Source of the DNA: a virus
Length of the DNA: 30,868 nt
Direction: 5' to 3' (one strand)
Virus record (IMG/VR): IMGVR_UViG_3300036651_000466
Span: 1-30,868 of that record
In this document: positions 5,724 to 30,868 of the stretch, one piece after another
Layout: each line of letters opens with the position of its first letter
Numbering within the stretch: the first letter of the stretch is position 1
The notes under the pieces: model-generated
Databases searched by the model: none
The model's input: the letters and a program-made list of their open reading frames with translations, nothing else
Told to the model about the DNA's origin: nothing
Program-made: the position numbers and the translations under genes

Positions 5724-5863
5724 TGCTTGTGCCAATGGATAGCATCCTTGAATCTTGGAGTTTTGGCTGGGAAGATATGCCGCTGAAGTTTCACGGCAAG
5801 CGGGTGAAGAAACACCGCAAACCTAAACCAAGAGAGATAGTCCAACTGAGCCTATTCAAATGA
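5723..5863 (+). CDS. 46-residue basic protein with C-terminal sliding-clamp-binding motif
   Basis: The GTG at 5723 overlaps the upstream TAG, and the stop at 5861-5863 overlaps the ATG of the glycosyltransferase (ATGA), so the ORF is packed on both sides. An ATG at 5735 would shorten it to 42 residues but has no ribosome binding site. The N-terminal half contains SILESWSFGWEDMPLKFHGK, the middle is strongly basic (KRVKKHRKPKPRE), and the protein ends IVQLSLFK. QLSLF matches the known bacterial beta-clamp-binding consensus QL[S/D]LF, usually found on flexible tails of clamp partners. A role as host-clamp recruiter or replication inhibitor is inferred. Chance occurrence cannot be excluded in so short an ORF. 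Confidence 0.6.
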   Translation: MLVPMDSILESWSFGWEDMPLKFHGKRVKKHRKPKPREIVQLSLFK

Positions 5864-6465
5864 TTGCAATAGCGATTCCCAGTAGAGGCTTAATGCACTC
5901 CCGTACCATGCAGGATGTGTACGCTAACATCCGATACTCCGGTATGGACTGTGAGCTATTTATGGCACACGGGCTCCCACAGCCGGAAGCGCAGAACAAG
6001 GTAACTGAAGATGCGCTGAAGCTTGACCCGACACATATCTGGTACGTGGATGATGACATGGCATTGCCCAAAGAAACGCTGTCGCACATGCTCCTGACTG
6101 ATAGCGAGATTGTGGTGGCGGATTACCCGATAGACCGCAACAAGCACTCCGTCTGCTACAAGAACGGTATATTCCAGTACGCCGGGCTAGGGTGTGTGTT
6201 AGCGCGTCGTTCCGTCTTTGATAAACTCGCGGCTCCGTACTTCCATAAAGGGCTTCACTACATTTGGGAAGGCGACCATTTCTATACGCAGCCAGCACCG
6301 CCCAGTGACCCGCAAAGTTATTTAGATGTCGATTTCTTCCAGCGGTTGTTAAAGACAGGCGTCGAGCCAGCCGTTATCAAATCTACCGTAGGCCAGTACT
6401 GGGCCGAGCGCTACGCGGGTACGAAATTCCAGCAGGACTCAGTGCAAACCTGGCGATTTGAGTAA
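5860..6465 (+). CDS. GT-A-fold glycosyltransferase
   Basis: A 201-residue protein beginning MIAIAIPSRGLMHSRTMQDV, typical of the first strand and loop of nucleotide-sugar glycosyltransferases. HIWYVDDDMALP at 59-70 supplies the D-x-D metal-binding motif (D64-D66). Then come a strand/loop region EIVVADYPIDRNK, GLGCVLARRSVFDKL, and an acidic acceptor-side segment IWEGDHF with SYLDVDFFQRLLKTG. The size is that of a single catalytic domain with no membrane segment. Such phage enzymes modify DNA, virion or host surface sugars. The substrate cannot be told here. It is the last gene of the plus-strand operon and ends nine bases before the oppositely oriented late genes. Confidence 0.8.
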   Translation: MIAIAIPSRGLMHSRTMQDVYANIRYSGMDCELFMAHGLPQPEAQNKVTEDALKLDPTHIWYVDDDMALPKETLSHMLLTDSEIVVADYPIDRNKHSVCYKNGIFQYAGLGCVLARRSVFDKLAAPYFHKGLHYIWEGDHFYTQPAPPSDPQSYLDVDFFQRLLKTGVEPAVIKSTVGQYWAERYAGTKFQQDSVQTWRFE

Positions 6466-7487: not shown

Positions 7488-8306
7488 ATCTCCTCCTTGG
7501 GAGTTACTTTGCGGCACAACTTGCGGTTGCGCGGGTTGGATGACTGGTGGGGTTGGGGGTTGAACTACCGGCTTTGGCGGGGCTATGACGGGAGCTGGAG
7601 GGATAACCGGAGCTGGTGCGGGAGCTGGAGCCTCTACGGGTGCAGGAGCAGCGATGACTGTCTGCGGTGCAGGAGCTACGGGAGCTGGTTTACCAAGCTT
7701 GAAGAAGTCGGTTATGTGCTCCGCGAAGAAGGCGTCCGTATCGACTGGACCCGCGATGCCGGGGAAAGTTCCGTTGTCCTTGAACTGGTGGAAGGTGTAT
7801 GTCGGACCGGGAATGGTTTGCTCCGGCGTGAACCCATAGTTCGCTTCCCACAGGGGAGACGTTGTTAATACATCTACGAACCCGAAGCGTCTAATTCTGT
7901 CGGTATCGACATAGAGAACCATGTGGAAACCCAGTAATCCCTCAAGCGTGGACTTAAATGCCCCAACCCATGCGTTCGCGTTCGGTACTTCTACCTCGAA
8001 GTCCAGGGCTACTGCTTCGCCTACTTGGAGGTCGGAACATACATTGTCGAAGAAGTACTGCGCTTGGGATTGCGGGGATGTCTTGTTGCCTGCGAAGTGG
8101 AAATATCCGTGCGGCATCGCGGCTCCGAGGGCGCGTACACCGCTTTTGTTATTGGCGAGTTGCGCGTCTACATAGTGGGGCGTAGTAACGCCGTCACCAC
8201 CGGAGCCCTTAATCCAGACGAACGCTGCGCCAGGATTAAATGCAGGCCAGTTGATGACACCCTGCCATTCCGAGACATCCGCTCCGTAAAATGTTTGTAC
8301 TGCCAT
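7281..8306 (-). CDS. Endolysin: GH25 muramidase fused to r1t-like holin domain
   Basis: The start at 8306 has AAGGAGACTAT directly before ATG. An in-frame codon at 8378 is not needed. The 341-residue product opens with a glycosyl hydrolase 25 lysozyme domain (residues 1-205) that cleaves the MurNAc-GlcNAc bond of peptidoglycan. YGADVSEWQG at 7-16 holds the conserved Asp10, ALDFEVE at 100-106 gives the catalytic D102-x-E104, and HGYFHF, LYVDTD and WEANYG are family signatures. Residues 206-273 are a Pro/Ala linker. Residues 274-341 form two hydrophobic helices (VIHTFWQAAGGALFAGLI, LAVGTAVAVGLAAAKAAL) matching r1t-type holins. No signal peptide is present. An internal start (7487) may release the holin alone. 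Confidence 0.88.
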   Translation of the reverse strand: MAVQTFYGADVSEWQGVINWPAFNPGAAFVWIKGSGGDGVTTPHYVDAQLANNKSGVRALGAAMPHGYFHFAGNKTSPQSQAQYFFDNVCSDLQVGEAVALDFEVEVPNANAWVGAFKSTLEGLLGFHMVLYVDTDRIRRFGFVDVLTTSPLWEANYGFTPEQTIPGPTYTFHQFKDNGTFPGIAGPVDTDAFFAEHITDFFKLGKPAPVAPAPQTVIAAPAPVEAPAPAPAPVIPPAPVIAPPKPVVQPPTPPVIQPAQPQVVPQSNSQGGDMNKAKSLWARVPDGIKRVIHTFWQAAGGALFAGLITAKSTADVKLAVGTAVAVGLAAAKAALTNSLSK

Positions 8307-8322
8307 ATAGTCTCCTTGATTA

Positions 8323-8997
8323 CTAAAAAAATGAAAAGAACTGACCAGGGTTAGGCGTCGTGCCGCCCGACGGTGCAATCAAGATGGTTGTACCGATAGC
8401 GTTCACGCCGCCACCGTTCATGCTGGATATAGTGGCATTGATGGCGGTCGTTGTATCAGACGTCAGACTATTCCTGGTAAATAACCATGACGGTTGATAA
8501 GTAGCGTTAGCGTACTGTTGCTGAGTCCATCCACTAGATATAGTCGCGGTATTTGTACCCCCACTACCATTGTTTACGAATGCGGCGATAGCGAGACAGT
8601 TCAACACCGTCGGTGTCGCGCTGCCTGAAGTGAGGCTAGTTGGTGATGCGCTAGAGTAACTATCGACGATTTGGTTGAAGGGGGTGCTGCCTTGGCCTGA
8701 TACTTCCAGCATGAAGCCAGAGTTTTGGTCATTGGTGCTATCGTAGGTCAGTGTCCAGTTTGTCCCGTCACCCGATTGAACTATCCGATAAAATACCGCT
8801 ACACCAATTCCGATAGGTTCATAGTCGTGTTGGAGCGTCCAGCCGCTCGGTGTAACTAACGGTCCATCGCCGTCGTACCACTCTGCGATGAAGATGAGCA
8901 AATTGCCGACAGTCGGCGTCGAGCCAAGCGTGAACACCATCGTCGTCGTGGCGGCGGTTCCGGCATATTGAGCCGATTGAACGAGCGATACAGCCAT
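8323..8997 (-). CDS. Beta-rich virion accessory protein, tail-associated
   Basis: The ATG follows the TAA of the spike gene with no gap (TAAATG), so translation is likely coupled. The 224-residue product begins MAVSLVQSAQYAGTAATTTM and is almost entirely short beta strands rich in Thr, Ser, Gly and Asn. PTVGNLLIFIAEWYDGDG, SGWTLQHDY, FYRIVQSGDGTNWTLTY and MLEVSGQG form a pattern common in Ig-like or jelly-roll structural domains of phages. Its place between the spike and the endolysin suggests a decoration or receptor-binding accessory. There is no enzymatic motif. Confidence 0.65.
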   Translation of the reverse strand: MAVSLVQSAQYAGTAATTTMVFTLGSTPTVGNLLIFIAEWYDGDGPLVTPSGWTLQHDYEPIGIGVAVFYRIVQSGDGTNWTLTYDSTNDQNSGFMLEVSGQGSTPFNQIVDSYSSASPTSLTSGSATPTVLNCLAIAAFVNNGSGGTNTATISSGWTQQQYANATYQPSWLFTRNSLTSDTTTAINATISSMNGGGVNAIGTTILIAPSGGTTPNPGQFFSFF

Positions 8998-11868
8998 TTA
9001 GTACCCCGTAGCGTCGGCTGATAAACATATCCACTTCACAGCTGCCGCGTCGTAGCGCAAGCCGATAGTGTGTGTTTTCCCTGCAACAGTGGTGGTAAGG
9101 AAGCTGGCTACGCCTGAGTTAGTGACATTCGTTGGGGCGGTAATCGTTCTGGCCGTGCCGTTGTCCTTGATACGGAGCAGTAAGTCTTGGCCGTCGGTCG
9201 GCGTACCGGAGAGGGTAAAGCTCGTGATATTGGCCGCAAGAGCGGTGATGTTGTACTGGTCGTAGGTGTCGGTGTTGACCGATGGGGTGGCGCTGGAAGC
9301 CGTCGTACCGATACGCTCCGTAATGCGCTTGTTGGTGAGCGTTTGGGTGCTTGTCAGCATGGCAATACTCGCCGTGTCCGAGAGGTTGGTAGAGGCTATG
9401 GAGATGTTAGCTGAACCGTCGAATGAAACGCCTGCGATAGTCCGAGGAGTGGTGAGTTTGGCAGCCGAGCCAGTCGTGTTCTGGTTGAATGTCGGGAAAG
9501 TGTTGCCTACGCCAGTGAGGTCTTTATTGGTGAGGGCTTGGGTGTCAGTCGTGCCGACAATGGTGCCTGTTGGAGCCGCCTTAGACGTACCCCATGCCGC
9601 ACCAGTCGAAACGGCGATACCGCTGCCAGGATAAACCATGCTGCCGCCGCTCACGGTAATGTCGTAGCGAGTGCCTGAGCCATCACCGGTAATTCGTGTA
9701 CCGGATCCAGTAATCATGCCTAGCTCGAACTTCAGGTTGGTCGCCCCGTTGATATTGACGATACCCGTGTTCGGGGTGGCGTCCATGAATATCTGGTCGA
9801 TGAGGATACCGCCAGACATCGCACCAGCGCTGTCATTGATGTTGATAACTGAGTTGCCGATGTTAGCCGTCGGTCCGGTATTCATAAAGATGTTGGTGAA
9901 GCTGGCTTGATTGTAGCCAGGAGAAGCGGAAGCCGACCCGAAGGTAATGGCGTTAAATGGCGTTGAGTAGCCGGAGTTGTAGTTACCAGCGCTGAAGAAT
10001 ATCTGGTCCATGTAAAGTTGCTGCGTGTAGGAGTCGAATACGCAGAAGTCGCCGTTGACGGTTGGGTAGTTCTCAAACTTACACTGGCTGAAGAAGAAGC
10101 CGTTGTTACCCCCACCTGTCGCACCCGTGCCTCGGTAAATGTGTAACGCTCCCAGCAGGAACGTTTCAACGCGAACCTGGCTGAACCAGAGCATATTGGA
10201 CGTGCCATACGCGTCGCCGTAAATCTCGATGACACGCTTCGTGGTACTGCCACAGTTGTTGAATGTCATCTGGTTGAAGTAGCTGTCTTGGCTGGTGCCG
10301 ATGTCGAGGGCCACGTCATTATTGCCGACCATCGAAATGCCCCGGAAGAACATCTGTTGACAGCCGTACAGGTGCGCGAGACTTCCGGCGGAGGCGTTGC
10401 CGTCAAGCGTGATGTCTATTAAGCCGCCGAACTGGTTGGGGAATGTTGGTCCTTGATAACCAAGCCATTCCACAATCGGTGCGGTACCACTGGTGCGTAT
10501 AATACGAGTGGCTTGATGCCCGGCGCCCCGTAGAATGACCCCCTTGCCAGATGCGCTAGATGTCGCGCTGGAGCAGTTAATAGTACCCGTTACCTTATAT
10601 GAGCCAGCCGGTAAGTCCACTGTCGCCGTTCCGTTGGTCATGGCGAGTGATGCGGTGACGGCCGCCTGAATAGCACTCGTGTCGTCATGGCTGCCGTCAC
10701 CGACTGCGCCATAAGACATAGCGTTGAACCCAGTGCCACGCACCCATGCCGGTAAGCCGCCGACGACTGACAGATATTCGCTCGTCGTGCCAATCGGCAA
10801 ACGGGCTGGTGTTGTACCGCTTGAGCTATAAATCGTATCGCCGGTCGTGGTCATTGGGTTGGTCATGCCACCCCCACCCGAATACTGGGGGATGTTCAGG
10901 GTATTACCACTGAAGGTAGCCGCTCCCGAGGTTCCAGTCGTAGTAAGACTGATTGGGGCCTGGTAATCCGTGCCTGCGGTAGCTGAGGAAACCGACGTGC
11001 CGTTGCCTTTCATAATGCCGTTGACGCTCGTAGACACAGTAATAGCTGGGGTAGTAGTAGGGGTTGCTACCGAACCGCCGAAGCCATTGGCGCTACTAAC
11101 TGACACGCTCGTAACCGTTCCCGAGCCGCCTCCACCTGTACCGTTTGCGGCTGCCGTGACGCGGCCTTTAGCATCAACGGTGATGTTCGCGTTCGTGTAA
11201 CTGCCCGGTGTGACTGCGGTGCTGGCAAGAGTTGCCGGTGCGCTACCGGGACCGCTAGCGGTCACATCTCCGGTAAGAGCCGTGATGTAGTTACCCGTTG
11301 CTTGCTTACCGGCAAGGTCAGTCGTGAGGTTTGTCACCTGTGATTCAGCAATTTGTATGGAGTTAGCGCTGGCGGCTGTGACACGTCCCTTAGAGTCAGT
11401 CGTGATAGACAGGGAGTGCGAAGCGTCTCCATTAGTGCCTGCGGTTCCTACGGCCGCAAGCGTCGGGTTCGGGTAGGTTCCAGTGAGGTCACCACCTGCC
11501 GTTGCGCCAGTTTGAATCGCGTTGACGATACGCGTGTCGTTACCCTGGGCTACCGTGTTTGAAGCTGTCCCATAGACAGGGGAGATATCCGTCGTCCCGT
11601 TCGCCGCGTCATCAACCGCCTGGATGCCGTTCTTAAAGTTAAGGTCTGACTCTACAGGTAGGTTGCTGCCTGAGTTCTGTACCTGATAAATGGAGCCATT
11701 CCTACCGGCTGCGCCCGGAGCCCCCGAAGGACCGGGAGCACCCGTAACTTGGTTAATGCCGGTGATGTTGGTTACGTTCACAACCGAACCGCTGGAGGAA
11801 GTGCCGTCAGCATTTAGCTGGGCAGTAAGGTCGTAAGTTGTAACTCCTTCTTGTGTAGGTGTTGGCAT
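8998..11868 (-). CDS. Tailspike with collagen-like stretch and pectate-lyase-like beta-helix
   Basis: A 956-residue receptor-binding protein. Residues 1-35 are a beta-rich head. GAPGPSGAPGAAGRNG near 41-56 is a short collagen-like repeat. Residues 70-340 hold repeats of the type TGTYPNPTLAAVGT and TVDAKGRVTAA seen in long fibre shafts. From about 380, FNAMSYGAVGDGSHDD starts a pectate-lyase-3/beta-helix domain running to roughly 750, the fold that binds and often degrades cell-surface polysaccharide. The C-terminal 170 residues (TNKRITERIG, LRIKDNGTARTITAP) form a trimerisation or tip-like region. The start follows the preceding stop by one base. Catalytic residues of the beta-helix cannot be fixed by eye. 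Confidence 0.85.
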   Translation of the reverse strand: MPTPTQEGVTTYDLTAQLNADGTSSSGSVVNVTNITGINQVTGAPGPSGAPGAAGRNGSIYQVQNSGSNLPVESDLNFKNGIQAVDDAANGTTDISPVYGTASNTVAQGNDTRIVNAIQTGATAGGDLTGTYPNPTLAAVGTAGTNGDASHSLSITTDSKGRVTAASANSIQIAESQVTNLTTDLAGKQATGNYITALTGDVTASGPGSAPATLASTAVTPGSYTNANITVDAKGRVTAAANGTGGGGSGTVTSVSVSSANGFGGSVATPTTTPAITVSTSVNGIMKGNGTSVSSATAGTDYQAPISLTTTGTSGAATFSGNTLNIPQYSGGGGMTNPMTTTGDTIYSSSGTTPARLPIGTTSEYLSVVGGLPAWVRGTGFNAMSYGAVGDGSHDDTSAIQAAVTASLAMTNGTATVDLPAGSYKVTGTINCSSATSSASGKGVILRGAGHQATRIIRTSGTAPIVEWLGYQGPTFPNQFGGLIDITLDGNASAGSLAHLYGCQQMFFRGISMVGNNDVALDIGTSQDSYFNQMTFNNCGSTTKRVIEIYGDAYGTSNMLWFSQVRVETFLLGALHIYRGTGATGGGNNGFFFSQCKFENYPTVNGDFCVFDSYTQQLYMDQIFFSAGNYNSGYSTPFNAITFGSASASPGYNQASFTNIFMNTGPTANIGNSVININDSAGAMSGGILIDQIFMDATPNTGIVNINGATNLKFELGMITGSGTRITGDGSGTRYDITVSGGSMVYPGSGIAVSTGAAWGTSKAAPTGTIVGTTDTQALTNKDLTGVGNTFPTFNQNTTGSAAKLTTPRTIAGVSFDGSANISIASTNLSDTASIAMLTSTQTLTNKRITERIGTTASSATPSVNTDTYDQYNITALAANITSFTLSGTPTDGQDLLLRIKDNGTARTITAPTNVTNSGVASFLTTTVAGKTHTIGLRYDAAAVKWICLSADATGY

Positions 11869-13240: not shown

Positions 13241-14251
13241 CTAAATTTGGCTCACTAAGAAGCCCTTGAAGTTACAGTTATAGGAACCCCCGTTGCCACC
13301 CCAACCGCCACTACCGCCTCTGCCAGCAGACACAAATACGGTATCACCGACATTTAGTTGCACCAGCGCGGTGACATGCATGTTTACATTTGTCGCCGCT
13401 GCTGTTGCGGGCTGCCAGTCTTGCTCAAGGGGGTTAGCTGTAGAGTTCTTATACAGGTCCATAACTACATATCCATCAGTCGGACCGTTGTTTATCTGAA
13501 GGTTGGCGTTGAACCAGTAGAAGCCCGATACGGGGACGGTATAGGTATAGGTGCTGGTGTTGAAGTTGTTATTGGTGTCAAAGCCCTTAGCGCTGAAGGG
13601 AACAACCTCCCCGGCGTTTGTAAAGTAGTTGGCGGGCGGGCTGCCGTAAACATTGAATTTATACGGGTTGGAGAGGGCGGCTGAGGAGATGGTGCCGTTA
13701 GGAACTACGACTTTACCCGTGCCTTTCGGCGTAAGGTCGATGTCGATGTTCGTATCGCTTCCGACTGCCGATAAGCCGATACCGTTACCAGCCGCAGCGT
13801 TCGCTACCTGGAGACGGTTGACCGCGCTCGTTGTAGCTACTTGGTCAATCCAGGGGTTGCCGTTCGGGTCGGTCAGAGATTTGTGGTAACCGTGCAGCTG
13901 CCCGTGGTTAGCAAGGAAGGCGCTCTGAAAGTCGTTCCAGAGGTTCGCGGTAATCCACATGACGACACTCGCACCCGTTGAGTGCGCTTGTTGGGTGCTG
14001 CCGTCCTGACCTCGGTTGAGGTTCACCACTTGCGAGCCGGAAACCACACCCGTCACTACTTCTTTTACCGAAGGGGTCGGCTGGCCGCTCGCGTTCGTAG
14101 CGTCGATAACCAGCGTGACACCCGTACCTGTAGGCAGGCCGGTAACCGATGATAGGGTCATCGAGGTGTCGCTATTCGCCATTGATGCCGACAGGGTAGT
14201 GGCGAACAGTGGCGTTGCGTTTCTTACGAGGTCATTGGCCGAAGCACTCAC
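13241..14251 (-). CDS. Fibre protein with C1q-like C-terminal domain
   Basis: The GTG at 14251 has AAGGAG six bases upstream and is the first gene after a late promoter module. The 336-residue protein begins MSASANDLVRNATPLFATTL. It has a beta-rich N-terminal region with VVSGSQVVNLNRGQDGSTQQ-type capsid/tail attachment sequence, and a middle shaft (VANAAAGNGIGLSAVGSDTN). The C-terminal 140 residues match the C1q/TNF jelly roll, with YTYTVPVSGFYWFNANLQI, YVVMDLYKNS and LVQLNVGDTVFVSAGRGG. Such domains form trimeric tips that bind receptors. It is likely a second receptor-binding protein besides the spike. Confidence 0.8.
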   Translation of the reverse strand: MSASANDLVRNATPLFATTLSASMANSDTSMTLSSVTGLPTGTGVTLVIDATNASGQPTPSVKEVVTGVVSGSQVVNLNRGQDGSTQQAHSTGASVVMWITANLWNDFQSAFLANHGQLHGYHKSLTDPNGNPWIDQVATTSAVNRLQVANAAAGNGIGLSAVGSDTNIDIDLTPKGTGKVVVPNGTISSAALSNPYKFNVYGSPPANYFTNAGEVVPFSAKGFDTNNNFNTSTYTYTVPVSGFYWFNANLQINNGPTDGYVVMDLYKNSTANPLEQDWQPATAAATNVNMHVTALVQLNVGDTVFVSAGRGGSGGWGGNGGSYNCNFKGFLVSQI

Positions 14252-14330
14252 AGCTTACTCCTTATATGAGTCGCGTGAGCTCTGCTCTCGGCGTTTGATT
14301 CTAATGTAGCAGATGTACTGATTTTGTTCA
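14249..14330 (-). promoter_or_regulatory. Late promoter and hairpin leader module A (fibre operon)
   Basis: Read on the minus strand, an extended -10-like box TGCTACATT is at 14311-14303. After it come a 22-base hairpin (14293-14272) made of outer stem CGC/GCG, conserved CGA, inner stem GAGC/GCTC with an AGA loop, then AAGGAGTAAGCT and the GTG at 14251. The same layout occurs at 17626-17705 and 29250-29335. A -35 is weak (ATGAAC, 17 bases upstream of TACATT). The predicted start is just before the hairpin, putting it at the 5' end of the mRNA. Confidence 0.75.
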
Positions 14331-16824: not shown

Positions 16825-17628
16825 TTATCCTTGAACACCATACGTCCAATAAGTGCTTGAATACCTGTTAGGGATTCGTGGTCCCATACCGGTCAGACCA
16901 TCAATATCTTTCACGTAGTCGTCCTGGAAGTTGGACGGCATCTCGTTACCGGCTACCATCTGCTTGAGCGCGTCGTTCGCCTTAGCCTCAAGGATTTGGT
17001 ACATGTTCATGTTGTAGTTGACGGCCGACAGTTGGGCGGCAATCTTGTAGATGATGAAACTGGGGTTCGACATCTCTGGCGTGTCGTTCGGGTCAATCAG
17101 GTTACCCGCTGAATCGAAAGTCGGGATGTTGGCGTGTTTGTAATACCGGAAGCTGATATTGGCCCCGATTTCTGCTGCCCCAGATTGCGGTACCCAGCCG
17201 GACTGTAGCGTATAGCCAACCACCGGGTTACCATAGATATAGAAACACGGTTGGTTTTGTAGACTATTTAACGACAGTTCCTCAATCTTCTTAACAGGGA
17301 AGGAGCGAACTGCCGGAGCGCCTGATGTGCTGCCGGGGTAAGTGACCCAGATGAAACCGTCACCGATGAATTTGTAGTCAACGGGCAGGGACCACGTTTG
17401 CGGTCCGTTCGTCTGAGCCTGGATAGTGCCGTAATTTGGTTCAGGTACCCAAAGCTCCTGCCACAGCACCCCTCGTTGGTTTTCCCATTCGGGGATAGCT
17501 AGGTTAGCGATAAGATTACCGAGAATCTGGTAATCCTGGTCACCCGATACGGGTGCAGTTGGATTATTCAACGCTTGCAGTTCTGCTGCTGCGATGATTT
17601 GTCCGTAAGTTAAGCCTGTGTTCGCCAC
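16825..17628 (-). CDS. Head-tail connector / tail-tubular-A-like adaptor
   Basis: GTG at 17628 has AAGGAG seven bases upstream and is the first gene after promoter module B. The 267-residue product begins MANTGLTYGQIIAAAELQAL and continues with ANLAIPEWENQRGVLWQELW, TWSLPVDYKFIGDGFIWVTY, a beta-rich middle, and a helical part (IYKIAAQLSAVNYNMNMYQI, LEAKANDALKQMVAGNE). The mixture of helices and strands and its place before the nozzle gene match adaptor proteins of podoviruses such as T7 gp11 or P22 gp4-like proteins. The identification rests mainly on gene order and size. Confidence 0.65.
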   Translation of the reverse strand: MANTGLTYGQIIAAAELQALNNPTAPVSGDQDYQILGNLIANLAIPEWENQRGVLWQELWVPEPNYGTIQAQTNGPQTWSLPVDYKFIGDGFIWVTYPGSTSGAPAVRSFPVKKIEELSLNSLQNQPCFYIYGNPVVGYTLQSGWVPQSGAAEIGANISFRYYKHANIPTFDSAGNLIDPNDTPEMSNPSFIIYKIAAQLSAVNYNMNMYQILEAKANDALKQMVAGNEMPSNFQDDYVKDIDGLTGMGPRIPNRYSSTYWTYGVQG

Positions 17629-17705
17629 GCGATACTCCTTAGAGTTACGCGTGTGTTCTACACTCGGCGTTTAAATTTAATGTAACAGAACGTTCGGAAT
17701 TTGTT
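17626..17705 (-). promoter_or_regulatory. Late promoter and hairpin leader module B (connector operon)
   Basis: On the minus strand, TGTTACATT at 17687-17679 is followed by a hairpin (17670-17647). Its outer stem is ACGC/GCGT, then CGA, inner stem GTGT/ACAC with an AGA loop, and AC on the 3' side. AAGGAGTATCGC and the GTG at 17628 follow. TAAACA, 17 bases upstream of TACATT, is a fair -35. Both stems differ in sequence from module A while keeping pairing, which supports a selected RNA structure. Confidence 0.78.
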
Positions 17706-23534: not shown

Positions 23535-23582
23535 GAACGGCGGAAGAAGCCGTACCTTTCGGGTTAGCTCCTCCTGCCGTTC
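23535..23582 (-). promoter_or_regulatory. Long structured leader hairpin upstream of the Gln-rich gene
   Basis: GAACGGC (23582-23576) pairs perfectly with GCCGTTC (23541-23535). Inside this, GGAGGAGC pairs with GCTTCTTCC through G-U pairs and one mismatch, and ACC/GGT closes an inner loop CGAAA. The stem is about 18 pairs long. TTCTTTGATT follows, which is too weak a T-run for a firm terminator call. It lies just before the ribosome binding site of the gene at 23517. Confidence 0.7.
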
Positions 23583-23607
23583 CAGATACAGGGGAATTAC
23601 ACTATTT

Positions 23608-23616
23608 AATATAGCA
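23608..23616 (-). promoter_or_regulatory. Possible fourth late promoter (extended -10 TGCTATATT)
   Basis: On the minus strand, TGCTATATT at 23616-23608 matches the extended -10 consensus TGnTATAAT closely and resembles the boxes of modules A and B. Its downstream sequence lacks the conserved CCGAG hairpin, but a different long hairpin follows at 23582-23535. No good -35 is visible. It would drive the Gln-rich and 1584-residue genes. Confidence 0.45.
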
Positions 23617-27048: not shown

Positions 27049-29252
27049 TAAATCCTCCCGTGCGCGATGTCATCGTGTAACTTTTGATGGGTCTGTGCGT
27101 GGCGCGCTTGAATAAAGGCCCGCGCCTGGGCAATTTCCGGCATGGCCGCTGGGTTCGGCGGTTGCATCGTAGATTCAGGAGCCTTCGGAACCGCATCCTT
27201 AACCGCTATCTGGCTCTTGGTCTTGCGGGCTGCTTCATCGTCAGCCTGTTGCTCAAAGTCTTCCGGTTTCAGTTGGATTCCTGCCTGAGCCGCGAGCTGT
27301 ACCGCGCCTGCTGGCGGGAGGTCCTTGATGTTGATTTGCTCAGTCATGCGGTTTTCAGGGCCTTGCGGTTGGGATTGCTGGGTCTGCGGTGCAGCGCCTT
27401 GGTTCTCGCCCATAACAATCGGCTTAACGAGCGAGTTAACGTCTTGAATACCACCGGAGTGGAGGAGCTTCTTGAAGAATCCGGCAAAGTCGAACTGTTG
27501 CCCCTGATTCTGAAGTTTCTGGTCGATGACTTCGCCATTTTGGGCGTACTCGGTGTAGATTTCCTGTAAGCGGGCGTGTTCGAGCTCCTTATCCTGGAGA
27601 CGGGTGCTCATCGGGTCAATCTTGTACAGGTAGCCCTTTTCGTTCTTGATTCTGGAAGGTTTGAGAGTTATCTTGACCGCCTTCGCATTGGCAATATCCG
27701 CGCCCTTTGACTGGCCCTCGAACTTGATGCAGTCCTTCACGTCAGGGTAGTTCTGGGCGATTTGGGCAATCTCCTGGCCGAATTGGTAGAACTCAATCGG
27801 CTTCGACCACTCAACGTCATTGATGAGCCCAACCATACCTTCAACGAGTTCCGTAATAGCGGAGGCCATCAGCTTGAGGTCGATGTTATCTCTCGTGGAT
27901 TGGGAGGCGTTCTGAGACTTAATAGCTTGGGGCGACTTGCCTTGGGTGGAGTCGGTGTTCTCAGCAGATACTTGCGTCGTGGTGTTGCCCAGGGTGTTAT
28001 TGAGCGCACCTTTAAGGAACTGGTAGGTGAGGTTCATGTTTTCCTGGACATCCGGGAACTGGTGATGGGAAACGTCGTTCGGGTTAGAAACAAGCCACTT
28101 AGCGCCCGGCTGGAACCTAATGGACGGCATTACCACATTCCCGTTAACAACCTTAATAGGCGGGTAGGTCGCCAGGCGCAAGCGGTCGATTTGAAGGTTG
28201 ATGGTGGTGTCCATCGCGTATTGCTGGAACCGTCCGGCTTCCATGTCACCGCGTCCAATAATGGAGTCGAGGGTAGGGAGGCCCGGTTTGAGGACAACGG
28301 GGATTCTCCCGTTCTTGTGCGGGTTCGGGATGTTGCGGATAACCATGTTGCCGAAGTCAGGGCAGAAGTCTATCCATCTTCCGTTAGTGCCGGATTCATA
28401 CTTGGTGACGACTTCAATCTCTCCGGTGTCAGTCCACGGAGCCCTACGCCGCCACTCCCACATCGGGTTGTTCCGCAGGTAATCCTGGCGGGCTTTCGGC
28501 ATCGTCGCGCCTTGCTCGGTGTCTTCAAGTACCTGGTCAATCGCGTCCAGGTCATACGTTGTTACATTGTCATCAACGAGGGATTGGAGGTATTCACGGG
28601 AGACATAATTCGATACGAACACGTAGTCACAGTTCTTAATAGATAAACGCCCCTGTTGCGGGAAGAAGTTACGCATCGGGACCAGCCAGCAGTCAGGACC
28701 AACGTACTGGTCGTTCTCCACCCAGTCGTAGCACATAGCCATCGAGCCGTAGACGTTGGAGTACATGTCCCACATGAACAGTTTGGTGTCCATGTCGTAC
28801 TGACAGTTGGCGTTCGGGTAGACGTATTTCTCCCACGCGAGATTCATCAACATGCCTTTGCCCATATTCTGAATACCGAGGGCGTGAACCGTCCCGGTCG
28901 GGGAGTTCGCCATATTCCGTCCGGCGCGTTCTATAACGATGGTCGAGAGAGAGCCCTCTGATACACGGACATGCGTGTTGTCCGGTGAGCGTCCCTGTAC
29001 GAATAAGAGGTCTTCGTACTCGTCCCAGTCCAGAGAGAAATAGCGGATTGCAGATTGCGATGCTTCGTATTGTTTCGAGAGCATCCCGCGAAGATTCGGG
29101 TCACCCCCGATAGAGTCGAAGGTACCTGTTTCTTCTAGTTCTTTCAGCCAATCAGCGTCATCTTCCGTTTGGTTAGAAGTCCGTCGGTTGAGTGGGCGTT
29201 GCCCTAGTCTCCGACCGCTGTTTGCTTGTCCGTTTGGCCCGTTTGGTGGCAC
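27048..29252 (-). CDS. Portal protein
   Basis: A 734-residue protein starting with GTG at 29252, with AAGGAG eight bases upstream, at the head of module C. The N-terminus is disordered (PPNGPNGQANSGRRLGQRPL). The core at about 60-450 shows the portal pattern: QYEASQSAIRYFSLDWDEYE, LSTIVIERAGRNMANSPTGT, DTKLFMWDMYSNVYGSMAMC, and WRRRAPWTDTGEIEVVTKYE. The C-terminal part is a long helical, Gln-rich segment (GAAPQTQQSQPQGPENRMTE) typical of the portal crown and barrel. Portals form the dodecamer through which DNA enters and leaves, and its length matches large podovirus portals. It lies just after the terminase and two small genes. Confidence 0.87.
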   Translation of the reverse strand: MPPNGPNGQANSGRRLGQRPLNRRTSNQTEDDADWLKELEETGTFDSIGGDPNLRGMLSKQYEASQSAIRYFSLDWDEYEDLLFVQGRSPDNTHVRVSEGSLSTIVIERAGRNMANSPTGTVHALGIQNMGKGMLMNLAWEKYVYPNANCQYDMDTKLFMWDMYSNVYGSMAMCYDWVENDQYVGPDCWLVPMRNFFPQQGRLSIKNCDYVFVSNYVSREYLQSLVDDNVTTYDLDAIDQVLEDTEQGATMPKARQDYLRNNPMWEWRRRAPWTDTGEIEVVTKYESGTNGRWIDFCPDFGNMVIRNIPNPHKNGRIPVVLKPGLPTLDSIIGRGDMEAGRFQQYAMDTTINLQIDRLRLATYPPIKVVNGNVVMPSIRFQPGAKWLVSNPNDVSHHQFPDVQENMNLTYQFLKGALNNTLGNTTTQVSAENTDSTQGKSPQAIKSQNASQSTRDNIDLKLMASAITELVEGMVGLINDVEWSKPIEFYQFGQEIAQIAQNYPDVKDCIKFEGQSKGADIANAKAVKITLKPSRIKNEKGYLYKIDPMSTRLQDKELEHARLQEIYTEYAQNGEVIDQKLQNQGQQFDFAGFFKKLLHSGGIQDVNSLVKPIVMGENQGAAPQTQQSQPQGPENRMTEQINIKDLPPAGAVQLAAQAGIQLKPEDFEQQADDEAARKTKSQIAVKDAVPKAPESTMQPPNPAAMPEIAQARAFIQARHAQTHQKLHDDIAHGRI

Positions 29253-29335
29253 GAAAGCACTCCTTGGTGTTTCGTACTTGCTTTACATAGGCTCGGTACT
29301 TTGATTTCAATGTAGCGAATCAGTGGTTATAAATA
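29250..29335 (-). promoter_or_regulatory. Late promoter and hairpin leader module C (portal/head operon)
   Basis: On the minus strand, CGCTACATT is at 29317-29309. The hairpin (29299-29274) has outer stem GTAC/GTAC, the conserved CGA, a weaker inner stem GC/GC and AA on the 3' side. AAGGAGTGCTTTC and the portal GTG follow. TTGTAT, 18 bases upstream of TACATT, is a moderate -35. The outer stem is unrelated in sequence to those of modules A and B but keeps the pairing and the CGA position. Confidence 0.75.
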
Positions 29336-29937: not shown

Positions 29938-30868
29938 TTATCTAACAAACCCTCTGGTATCAAACGCGTCAGTCGATAGCCCCGTTACGTCTTGTCCTTG
30001 CGGCCGAAACGGATTGCCTCTAGGCGTGTAAGCCGCTGTGAAGCCGCCTCCAGCCTGCGCGTAGAAGGGAATATCATCCTGCGGAACCTGCCGAGAGTTA
30101 GCGTTCTTTTTAAGCGATACAGCCAGATAACGAAATGCGTCAGCGCCGTTAGAGCTCCAGTCGTGAAGCGGTTTGTTGTCATAGACCCTTAACTCCTCGT
30201 TATACTTACGGTGGTAGTTTTTGAGGGCAGCGACTCCACTCTCACACTTCTTCGCGTCGAAGTAGCATCGAGGAAGGATAGTACGCGCCGCATTGATGCC
30301 GTCCTCAATGCTGAGCTTCGGGGCAATCTTGAAGTTAAGACCGAGGGAGCGAGCCACCTCGATACGAGAAAGGCCTGACCCCATCTCTCTGACACGTATA
30401 TCGTGCGGGGCGTAGTGGTCTTCATAGACATAGGGAAGTTCCTTTATGTGCTTTATATAAAAATCAAGTCCCTTGCCGTTGGACTCGTAGTAGTCAATCA
30501 AATGGATTTCATCACCGATGTGTTGGACGAACCAAATGGACATCGCATCCCCAACCCCGAGGTCCCAGTAGGTAGATACGGGAATCTCACCGTGGTGAAC
30601 GACATTCCCGATACGCCCGTCATCTTCGGCTCTGGATATGAGGTCACCGTAGTAGGAACCTTGAATCGGCTCGTCGAAGGAGCACATCATCTCCTGGTTA
30701 AATAATCGGGTATCTCCGTAGATGGAGATGTACTCTTTCTCGATTTCTTTTAACTCGCCCTCATTGAAAACCCCGGCGTCCTTAGCGGTCATAAACGAAA
30801 CGAACCAGTTTCTTTTAAGCGCTTCCTGGTATAAGGTCCTCGCATGGTTATCTCCACGAGGGGTGATT
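29938..30868 (-). CDS. terL: Terminase large subunit, C-terminal part (cut by the right edge)
   Basis: The frame is open from the right edge (it reads ITPRGDNHARTLYQEALKRN) to the stop at 29938, about 309 residues of the C-terminal half. A start codon at 30792 is internal and is not the true start. TPRGDNHA and LFNQEMMCSFDEPIQGSYYG are typical of the ATPase-to-nuclease linker. YWDLGVGDAMSIWFVQ contains the first nuclease Asp. YAPHDIRVREMGSGLSRIEV is a middle nuclease segment, and SSNGADAFRYLAVSLKK supplies the last conserved Asp of the RNase H-like nuclease. This subunit pumps and cuts DNA into the head through the portal, whose gene follows two genes later. The ATPase part lies outside the window. 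Confidence 0.88.
   Translation of the reverse strand, partial: ITPRGDNHARTLYQEALKRNWFVSFMTAKDAGVFNEGELKEIEKEYISIYGDTRLFNQEMMCSFDEPIQGSYYGDLISRAEDDGRIGNVVHHGEIPVSTYWDLGVGDAMSIWFVQHIGDEIHLIDYYESNGKGLDFYIKHIKELPYVYEDHYAPHDIRVREMGSGLSRIEVARSLGLNFKIAPKLSIEDGINAARTILPRCYFDAKKCESGVAALKNYHRKYNEELRVYDNKPLHDWSSNGADAFRYLAVSLKKNANSRQVPQDDIPFYAQAGGGFTAAYTPRGNPFRPQGQDVTGLSTDAFDTRGFVR

Follow-up and report, generated by a model that had tools for sequence, protein, structure and literature searches.

A small 5'-terminal hairpin common to the late-operon leaders of a group of uncultured phages, a candidate default-OFF switch

The timing of phage late genes usually depends on a new sigma factor or polymerase, or on a Q-type antiterminator that works at a single promoter. 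The viral record IMGVR_UViG_3300036651_000466, analysed here over its positions 1 to 30,868 (30,868 nucleotides, referred to below as the window), raises the question of what a small hairpin is doing at the predicted 5' end of one late operon after another. An earlier note on this DNA had described three minus-strand sites, at each of which an extended -10 box precedes a hairpin, AAGGAGT and a GTG start, and all three read as it described. All sites and leader elements of the window given below lie on the minus strand.

Site P, ahead of the portal-like operon, has an extended -10-like box (CGCTACATT, 29309–29317) followed by a 5' hairpin (GTAC CGA GC CTATGTAAA GC AA GTAC, 29274–29299) whose inner stem closes a loop of 9 nt (GC-(9 nt)-GC). 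The box was recognized from its sequence, from a motif unique to the three sites and from the relatives, which carry TATAAT, mostly TGnTATAAT, at this position; the hairpin is matched by the covariance model R1 (39.4 bits) and shows outer-stem covariation with eight relatives. Site C, ahead of the g16825 operon, was read from the sequence as a box TGTTACATT (17679–17687) and a hairpin ACGC CGA GTGT AGA ACAC AC GCGT (17647–17670), with the same layout at the homologous gene in related contigs L012, L137, L138 and L144. Site F, ahead of the fibre-like operon, was likewise read as a box TGCTACATT (14303–14311) and a hairpin CGC CGA GAGC AGA GCTC AC GCG (14272–14293), and the layout recurs at the homologous gene in L114 and L116–L119. 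The label "fibre" reflects C1q and tail-fibre matches, and "portal" and "connector" are putative labels taken from gene order only. In the whole 30,868-base record, the 15-base motif TACATTNNANTNAAA has three copies, all on the minus (late) strand and none outside these sites. At each of them an A-rich gap separates the -10 box (TGYTACATT or CGCTACATT) from the hairpin, TACATT and CCGAG are 11–12 nt apart, and AAGGAGT is followed by a GTG start.

At window positions drawn at random, 7–9 nt after a hexamer, the bare layout with no fewer paired bases than at the actual site has a chance of 0.10 (P), 0.025 (C) and 0.053 (F); once Y[GC]A and A bulges are demanded, a rule learned from the same data, it becomes 0.0021, 0.0006 and 0.0012, respectively. 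Folding z-scores of the individual hairpins are -0.5 (P), -1.9 (C) and -1.4 (F). Single-sequence folding energy is weak evidence here, and comparison across relatives is the decisive evidence.

Searches with the capsid, portal-like, TerL and g16825 proteins of the window recovered about 22 other IMG/VR contigs, which belong to one phage group and have the same late gene order. Contigs related through TerL only (L047–L113) were set aside, as no other window gene was common to the compared stretches. No relatives of the window portal or major capsid protein were found in GTDB genomes, and hence neither a host nor a prophage; INPHARED gave no DNA match and no portal match, only distant major capsid proteins of 25–35% identity. 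The relatives are well diverged, since their base composition spans 36% to 54% G+C. At the homologous genes they have a -10 box, usually TATAAT and often TGnTATAAT, followed after 6–10 nt by a hairpin of the same layout, and most late (structural-gene) operons of this group begin with it. Copies in related phages, on which the earlier note had made its late-operon module depend, thus exist at the same late genes in about 22 contigs, and its extended -10 box and its placement of the hairpin foot at the predicted transcription start both extend to the relatives. Examples are the leaders of L006 (AGTAC-TGA-GCCTAGGCAAAGC-AG-GTACT), L004 (AGCAC-TGA-..-AG-GTGCT), L019 (AGTAG-TGA-..-AG-CTACT) and L041 (AGTAT-CGA-GCG..CGC-AG-ATACT), and the fibre leaders of L114 (CAC-TCA-GTA..TAC-AG-GTG) and L117 (AAC-TCA-GTC..GAC-AG-GTT). 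The outer stems at P and F are degraded in one genome, G004 (L022). The covariance model R1, built from portal leaders, found portal copies only and did not reach the other operon classes. A layout descriptor combined with a competing-helix term gave 25 matches in 324 kb, all at late-operon leaders and some of them close copies in related contigs, versus 2–4 in Markov controls.

The general layout is an outer stem, a 3-nt bulge (mostly YGA), an inner stem, a 2-nt bulge (mostly AG) and the returning outer stem. In a gapless alignment of nine portal leaders, both-sided changes were identified in four of five outer pairs; 84.7% of cells pair, versus 74.2% after shuffling and 14–33% in slid registers, and the covariation score of 0.316 (versus 0.108) was equalled by none of 500 shuffles and by no slid register. 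A second alignment brought together 17 distinct sites from four operon classes, aligned by structure and by hand to fit the layout. In this set, outer-stem cells pair in 59 of 68 cases, where 20,000 permutations averaged 39.8 and never exceeded 53; inner-stem cells pair in 45 of 51, where the permutations averaged 24.6 and never exceeded 38. The portal alignment is the cleaner test because the all-class alignment was hand-fitted. The earlier note had taken compensatory changes as a sign of selected RNA structure, to be given up should an alignment show no excess of them; the excess over permutations is present, and as a comparative prediction the hairpin structure is secure. Across classes the internal loop is also kept: its first base is a pyrimidine in 17 of 17 sites and its third base A in 16 of 17, and on the opposite side A is found in all 17 and the following G in 13. 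Outside the stems this internal loop, about five unpaired positions, is the only sequence kept across classes, and the terminal loops differ between operons. The CCGAG box that had been described as conserved is found at all three window sites but is not general, since the bulge elsewhere reads TGA, TCA, CCA or TGG.

A layout scan designed on the portal, fibre and g16825 sites ranked a new class at the top, namely the leader of g22468 homologues (site T), which adds a fourth operon to the three previously described. The T leaders of L020 (GTATAA-TGA-CTTTG-AAAT-CAAAG-AG-TTATGC), L011 (CAA-TGA-CTTTG-AAAT-CAAAG-AG-TTG) and L022 (TAAC-TGG-CTAAG-AAAT-CTTAG-AG-GTTA) follow the standard layout, and between CTTTG/CAAAG and CTAAG/CTTAG both sides of the inner stem have changed around a constant AAAT loop. 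The T hairpin of L022 is not accompanied by a terminator. In the window, a possible site T precedes g22468 (23536–23616), where TGCTATATT (23616–23608) is followed by a short hairpin and by a strong terminator-like hairpin (23581–23536). The short hairpin is the weaker one and overlaps the terminator-like hairpin; its layout is unlike the standard one, and this site possibly follows the same two-state logic in a different form.

Full-leader RNAfold predictions in the relatives revealed a second fold of lower energy, in which the 3' half of the hairpin pairs downstream. In L006, CAAAGCAGGTACTCC (the hairpin 3' half plus TCC) pairs with GGAGTATTTGTTTTG, a stretch that includes both the TTG start and the Shine–Dalgarno (SD) sequence. 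The corresponding partners in L041 are CAACGCAGATACTCC and GGAGTATTAGCGTTG, so that both competitor strands have changed together. Sequestor-type competitors, covering the SD and a TTG or GTG start, are present in the P leaders of L006, L007, L011, L019, L041 and L005. Terminator-type competitors with a U-tract are present in L004, L012, L114 and L117 and in the T leaders of L011, L020 and L008, most of these leaders having a separate SD after the terminator. The 5' hairpin as an antiterminator overlapping the 5' strand of an intrinsic terminator is thus found in L004, L012, L114, L117 and the relatives' T leaders, and is absent from the three window sites. When only the downstream RNA was shuffled, the mean z was -3.4 and p fell below 0.05 in 16 of 19 leaders; cognate duplexes sum to -268 kcal/mol, a value that none of 20,000 permutations of the partners reached (permuted mean -167). 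The predicted competitor helix therefore co-varies with the hairpin across the family. The hairpin itself is worth -3 to -11 kcal/mol and the alternative (OFF) fold about -9 to -23, the latter being 5–16 kcal/mol lower wherever the competitor is significant, except at T of L022. The earlier one-hairpin picture missed that in most relatives the hairpin is half of a two-state leader.

Exclusive, co-varying alternative folds over a terminator or SD are encountered across the family, and in the window reach significance at site C only. There GCGTAACTC...GAGTATCGC (17628–17650) would overlap the outer 3' strand of the hairpin and cover AAGGAG (RNAfold, p = 0.026; duplex, p = 0.003). A possible sequestor at site P, formed by TACGAAACAC...GTGCTTTCGTG around AAGGAG (29265–29260) and the GTG start (29252–29250), is a weak candidate (29250–29276; RNAfold, shuffles p = 0.33; duplex p = 0.06). 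In the leader of site F (14249–14271), with AAGGAG at 14263–14258 and a GTG start, an ACTC/GAGT pairing is not significant (p = 0.47; duplex p = 0.08). As a separate observation, the portal gene of L006, L007, L011, L019 and L041 starts with TTG, a codon that belongs to the OFF-helix 3' strand and faces CAA of the hairpin loop; this weak start may be kept for pairing in that helix.

Sequence comparison by itself establishes that the hairpin exists, that it co-varies, that it sits at late operons and that most relatives have a competing helix. Whether these parts make up a default-OFF leader switch of the late operons, with the hairpin as antiterminator or recognition element for a putative factor, we judge to be evenly balanced. 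In such a switch, each late operon would start from its own sigma70-type promoter, usually with an extended -10 box, and the late mRNA would begin, at the predicted start site, with the small hairpin. The leader RNA would have two exclusive folds. In the OFF fold, presumably the default inside the cell, the 3' half of the hairpin and downstream RNA would form a U-tract intrinsic terminator or a helix hiding the SD and start codon. In the ON fold, the 5' hairpin would form and be held by a factor reading the internal loop, which would break the OFF helix and allow the late genes to be transcribed or translated together; the timing of late expression may be set in this way. Given the lower energy of the OFF fold, the ON hairpin would not be expected to prevail unaided, and the internal loop, as the one stretch outside the stems that is conserved between classes, suggests a factor that reads it. 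Most likely, this trans-acting factor would be an RNA-binding protein of the phage, produced ahead of late gene expression; binding of a phage regulator, one of the roles the earlier note had offered for the hairpin, is plausible. In the window phage, where one site has a clear OFF helix and the other two a weak one, the hairpin may serve chiefly as a translation recognition element. A wider proposal, which we put forward tentatively and with some doubt, is a previously undescribed regulon of as many as four late operons, all turned on by a single RNA-binding factor of the phage that holds the 5'-terminal hairpin they have in common; depending on the phage or operon, this would lift either termination or the occlusion of SD and start codon. 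Against the two-state switch stand two of the three window sites, which are without a significant competing helix; genome G004 (L022), with its T hairpin lacking a terminator and its P and F outer stems degraded; and the failure to find a known antiterminator domain in nine records.

The other role offered by the earlier note was protection of the 5' end of late mRNA. For the leaders of T7 gene 10 and ompA, decay protection by a 5' stem-loop has been argued, and a stem-loop that only shields late mRNA from 5'-end-dependent decay, with internal loop and downstream hairpins incidental, would account for a hairpin foot where the start is expected, 6–10 nt past the -10 box, as well as for the two window sites and the T site of G004 that are without a convincing competitor. 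It leaves unexplained the bulges kept across four operons and the terminators or SD sequestors that overlap and co-vary with the hairpin 3' half. Plain protection is thus incomplete, as the hairpin is also half of a two-state leader in most relatives, and as the sole function we regard it as unlikely. A ligand-free kinetic device, in which the 5' hairpin folds first, leaves fresh mRNA open and then gives way to the OFF fold, setting a fixed read-through fraction or a translation timer, fits a hairpin that is transcribed first and is weaker than the OFF fold; it does not require the kept bulge sequence, and the terminator versions would have to decide within tens of nucleotides, leaving little room for a timer, so that this reading is less probable still.

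We give low probability to a metabolite riboswitch, with the hairpin as a very small aptamer for a host or infection-state compound. Terminator and SD-sequestor expression platforms both occur, a pattern typical of riboswitches, but only about five unpaired positions are kept, loops vary between operons, Rfam gives no match and nothing links the genes to metabolism. A Q- or AlpA-like antiterminator loaded on promoter DNA, with terminators just downstream and the 5' hairpin incidental, would follow the lambda pR'-tR' and alpB design of a late promoter and an immediate terminator (PMC7969949, PMC7171158). We consider it very improbable: the -35 to -10 regions of the operons of one genome have no common element, no Antiterm or Phage_antitermQ domain was found in nine records, and hairpin covariation would be left without explanation. 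That the three leaders resemble each other by chance would agree with the weak single-site folding z-scores, but is hardly credible; it is already contradicted by copies in synteny on about 22 contigs, by covariation and by the specificity of the genome-wide scan.

Searches for the factor behind the proposed switch covered nine family records, some of which may be fragments. CAT_RBD (PF03123) was identified in none of the nine, and control genomes gave matches; no ANTAR domain was found, a weak negative as control genomes gave only sub-cut-off matches; Phage_antitermQ and Antiterm domains were likewise not found. In genome G006 no 6-mer is common to the upstream regions of all four operons, and no common element was found in the -35 to -10 promoter spacers of the four operons. 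This leaves the RNA hairpin as the common feature and disfavours a DNA-loaded Q- or AlpA-type factor. Conserved non-structural proteins were considered as the regulator and rejected; they look enzymatic or packaging-related, presumably of NinG/zinc-finger, glycosyltransferase-like and TerS types, identities that are partly motif reading, and none is a convincing RNA binder.

Rfam gave no match at the gathering score and only chance-level matches at a relaxed threshold, and our search of the open-access literature found no equivalent. The nearest RNA parallel is the RAT of the LicT-BglG-SacY systems, a small hairpin with unusual internal pairing whose stabilized form excludes an overlapping intrinsic terminator (PMC3369936). 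The same antagonism between hairpin and overlapping terminator is predicted for some of these phage leaders, but they have neither a CAT_RBD protein in nine records nor an Rfam match, their element stands at the transcript 5' end before late genes, and some copies use SD sequestration. In ANTAR systems (EutV/NasR) a protein-stabilized hairpin also overlaps a terminator (PMC3369936), whereas each phage leader has a single hairpin rather than two with A1/G4 loops, the domain negative being weak. Lambda pR'-tR'-Q and AlpA offer a similar arrangement, in which a conditional terminator follows closely on the promoter that serves the late or lysis genes. Q and AlpA load at promoter DNA elements (PMC7969949). 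In the phage group, by contrast, the common element is RNA and is carried by as many as four operons of a genome, and the nine records searched gave no Q-type domain. HK022 put is likewise a phage RNA structure that lies immediately downstream of promoters and alters termination. It has two stem-loops, however, and its target is RNA polymerase at terminators far away; the late leaders differ in having one hairpin that directly overlaps a local terminator or SD. In the T7 gene 10 and ompA leaders, too, an abundant mRNA has a stem-loop at its very 5' end or close to it, but these leaders lack the conserved bulge and, to our knowledge, are not mutually exclusive with a terminator or sequestor. 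The late hairpin would work like RAT-type leaders and, at system level, like lambda pR'-tR', yet fails tested defining features of both. By kind we place it with the cis-acting two-state RNA leaders, which are known; a phage late regulon of such leaders looks uncatalogued. If the proposed switch is real, an RNA switch repeated from one structural operon to the next would synchronize particle assembly by other means, and an element that drives a terminator in one operon or phage and blocks the SD elsewhere would illustrate the exchange of expression platforms. The hairpin also provides a defined bait for finding a phage RNA-binding regulator.

Several minor observations concern the surrounding genes. 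A protein encoded at 5860–6465 of the window, at the end of the early block, is conserved in every large relative covering the region; it has no Pfam match above cut-off, and by eye we take its motifs (EDDQ in relatives) to be GT-A glycosyltransferase-like. AlphaFold models of the portal-like and g16825 proteins (pLDDT 33 and 45) were too poor for use. The window TerL (29938–30792) comprises about 284 C-terminal residues only, versus 461–476 in relatives, and appears to be cut by the contig end. Extra sequence lies between g29351 and the portal leader in L004 (66–480), L008 (2500–2900) and L041 (1750–3880), the leader always staying with the portal gene, and this gap looks like an insertion hotspot. 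In L132 (G004, IMGVR_UViG_3300047496_000036), an insert at 8242–9769 splits the major capsid gene, and it contains a group I intron match (E = 6e-4, below the gathering score) together with a LAGLIDADG-like ORF.
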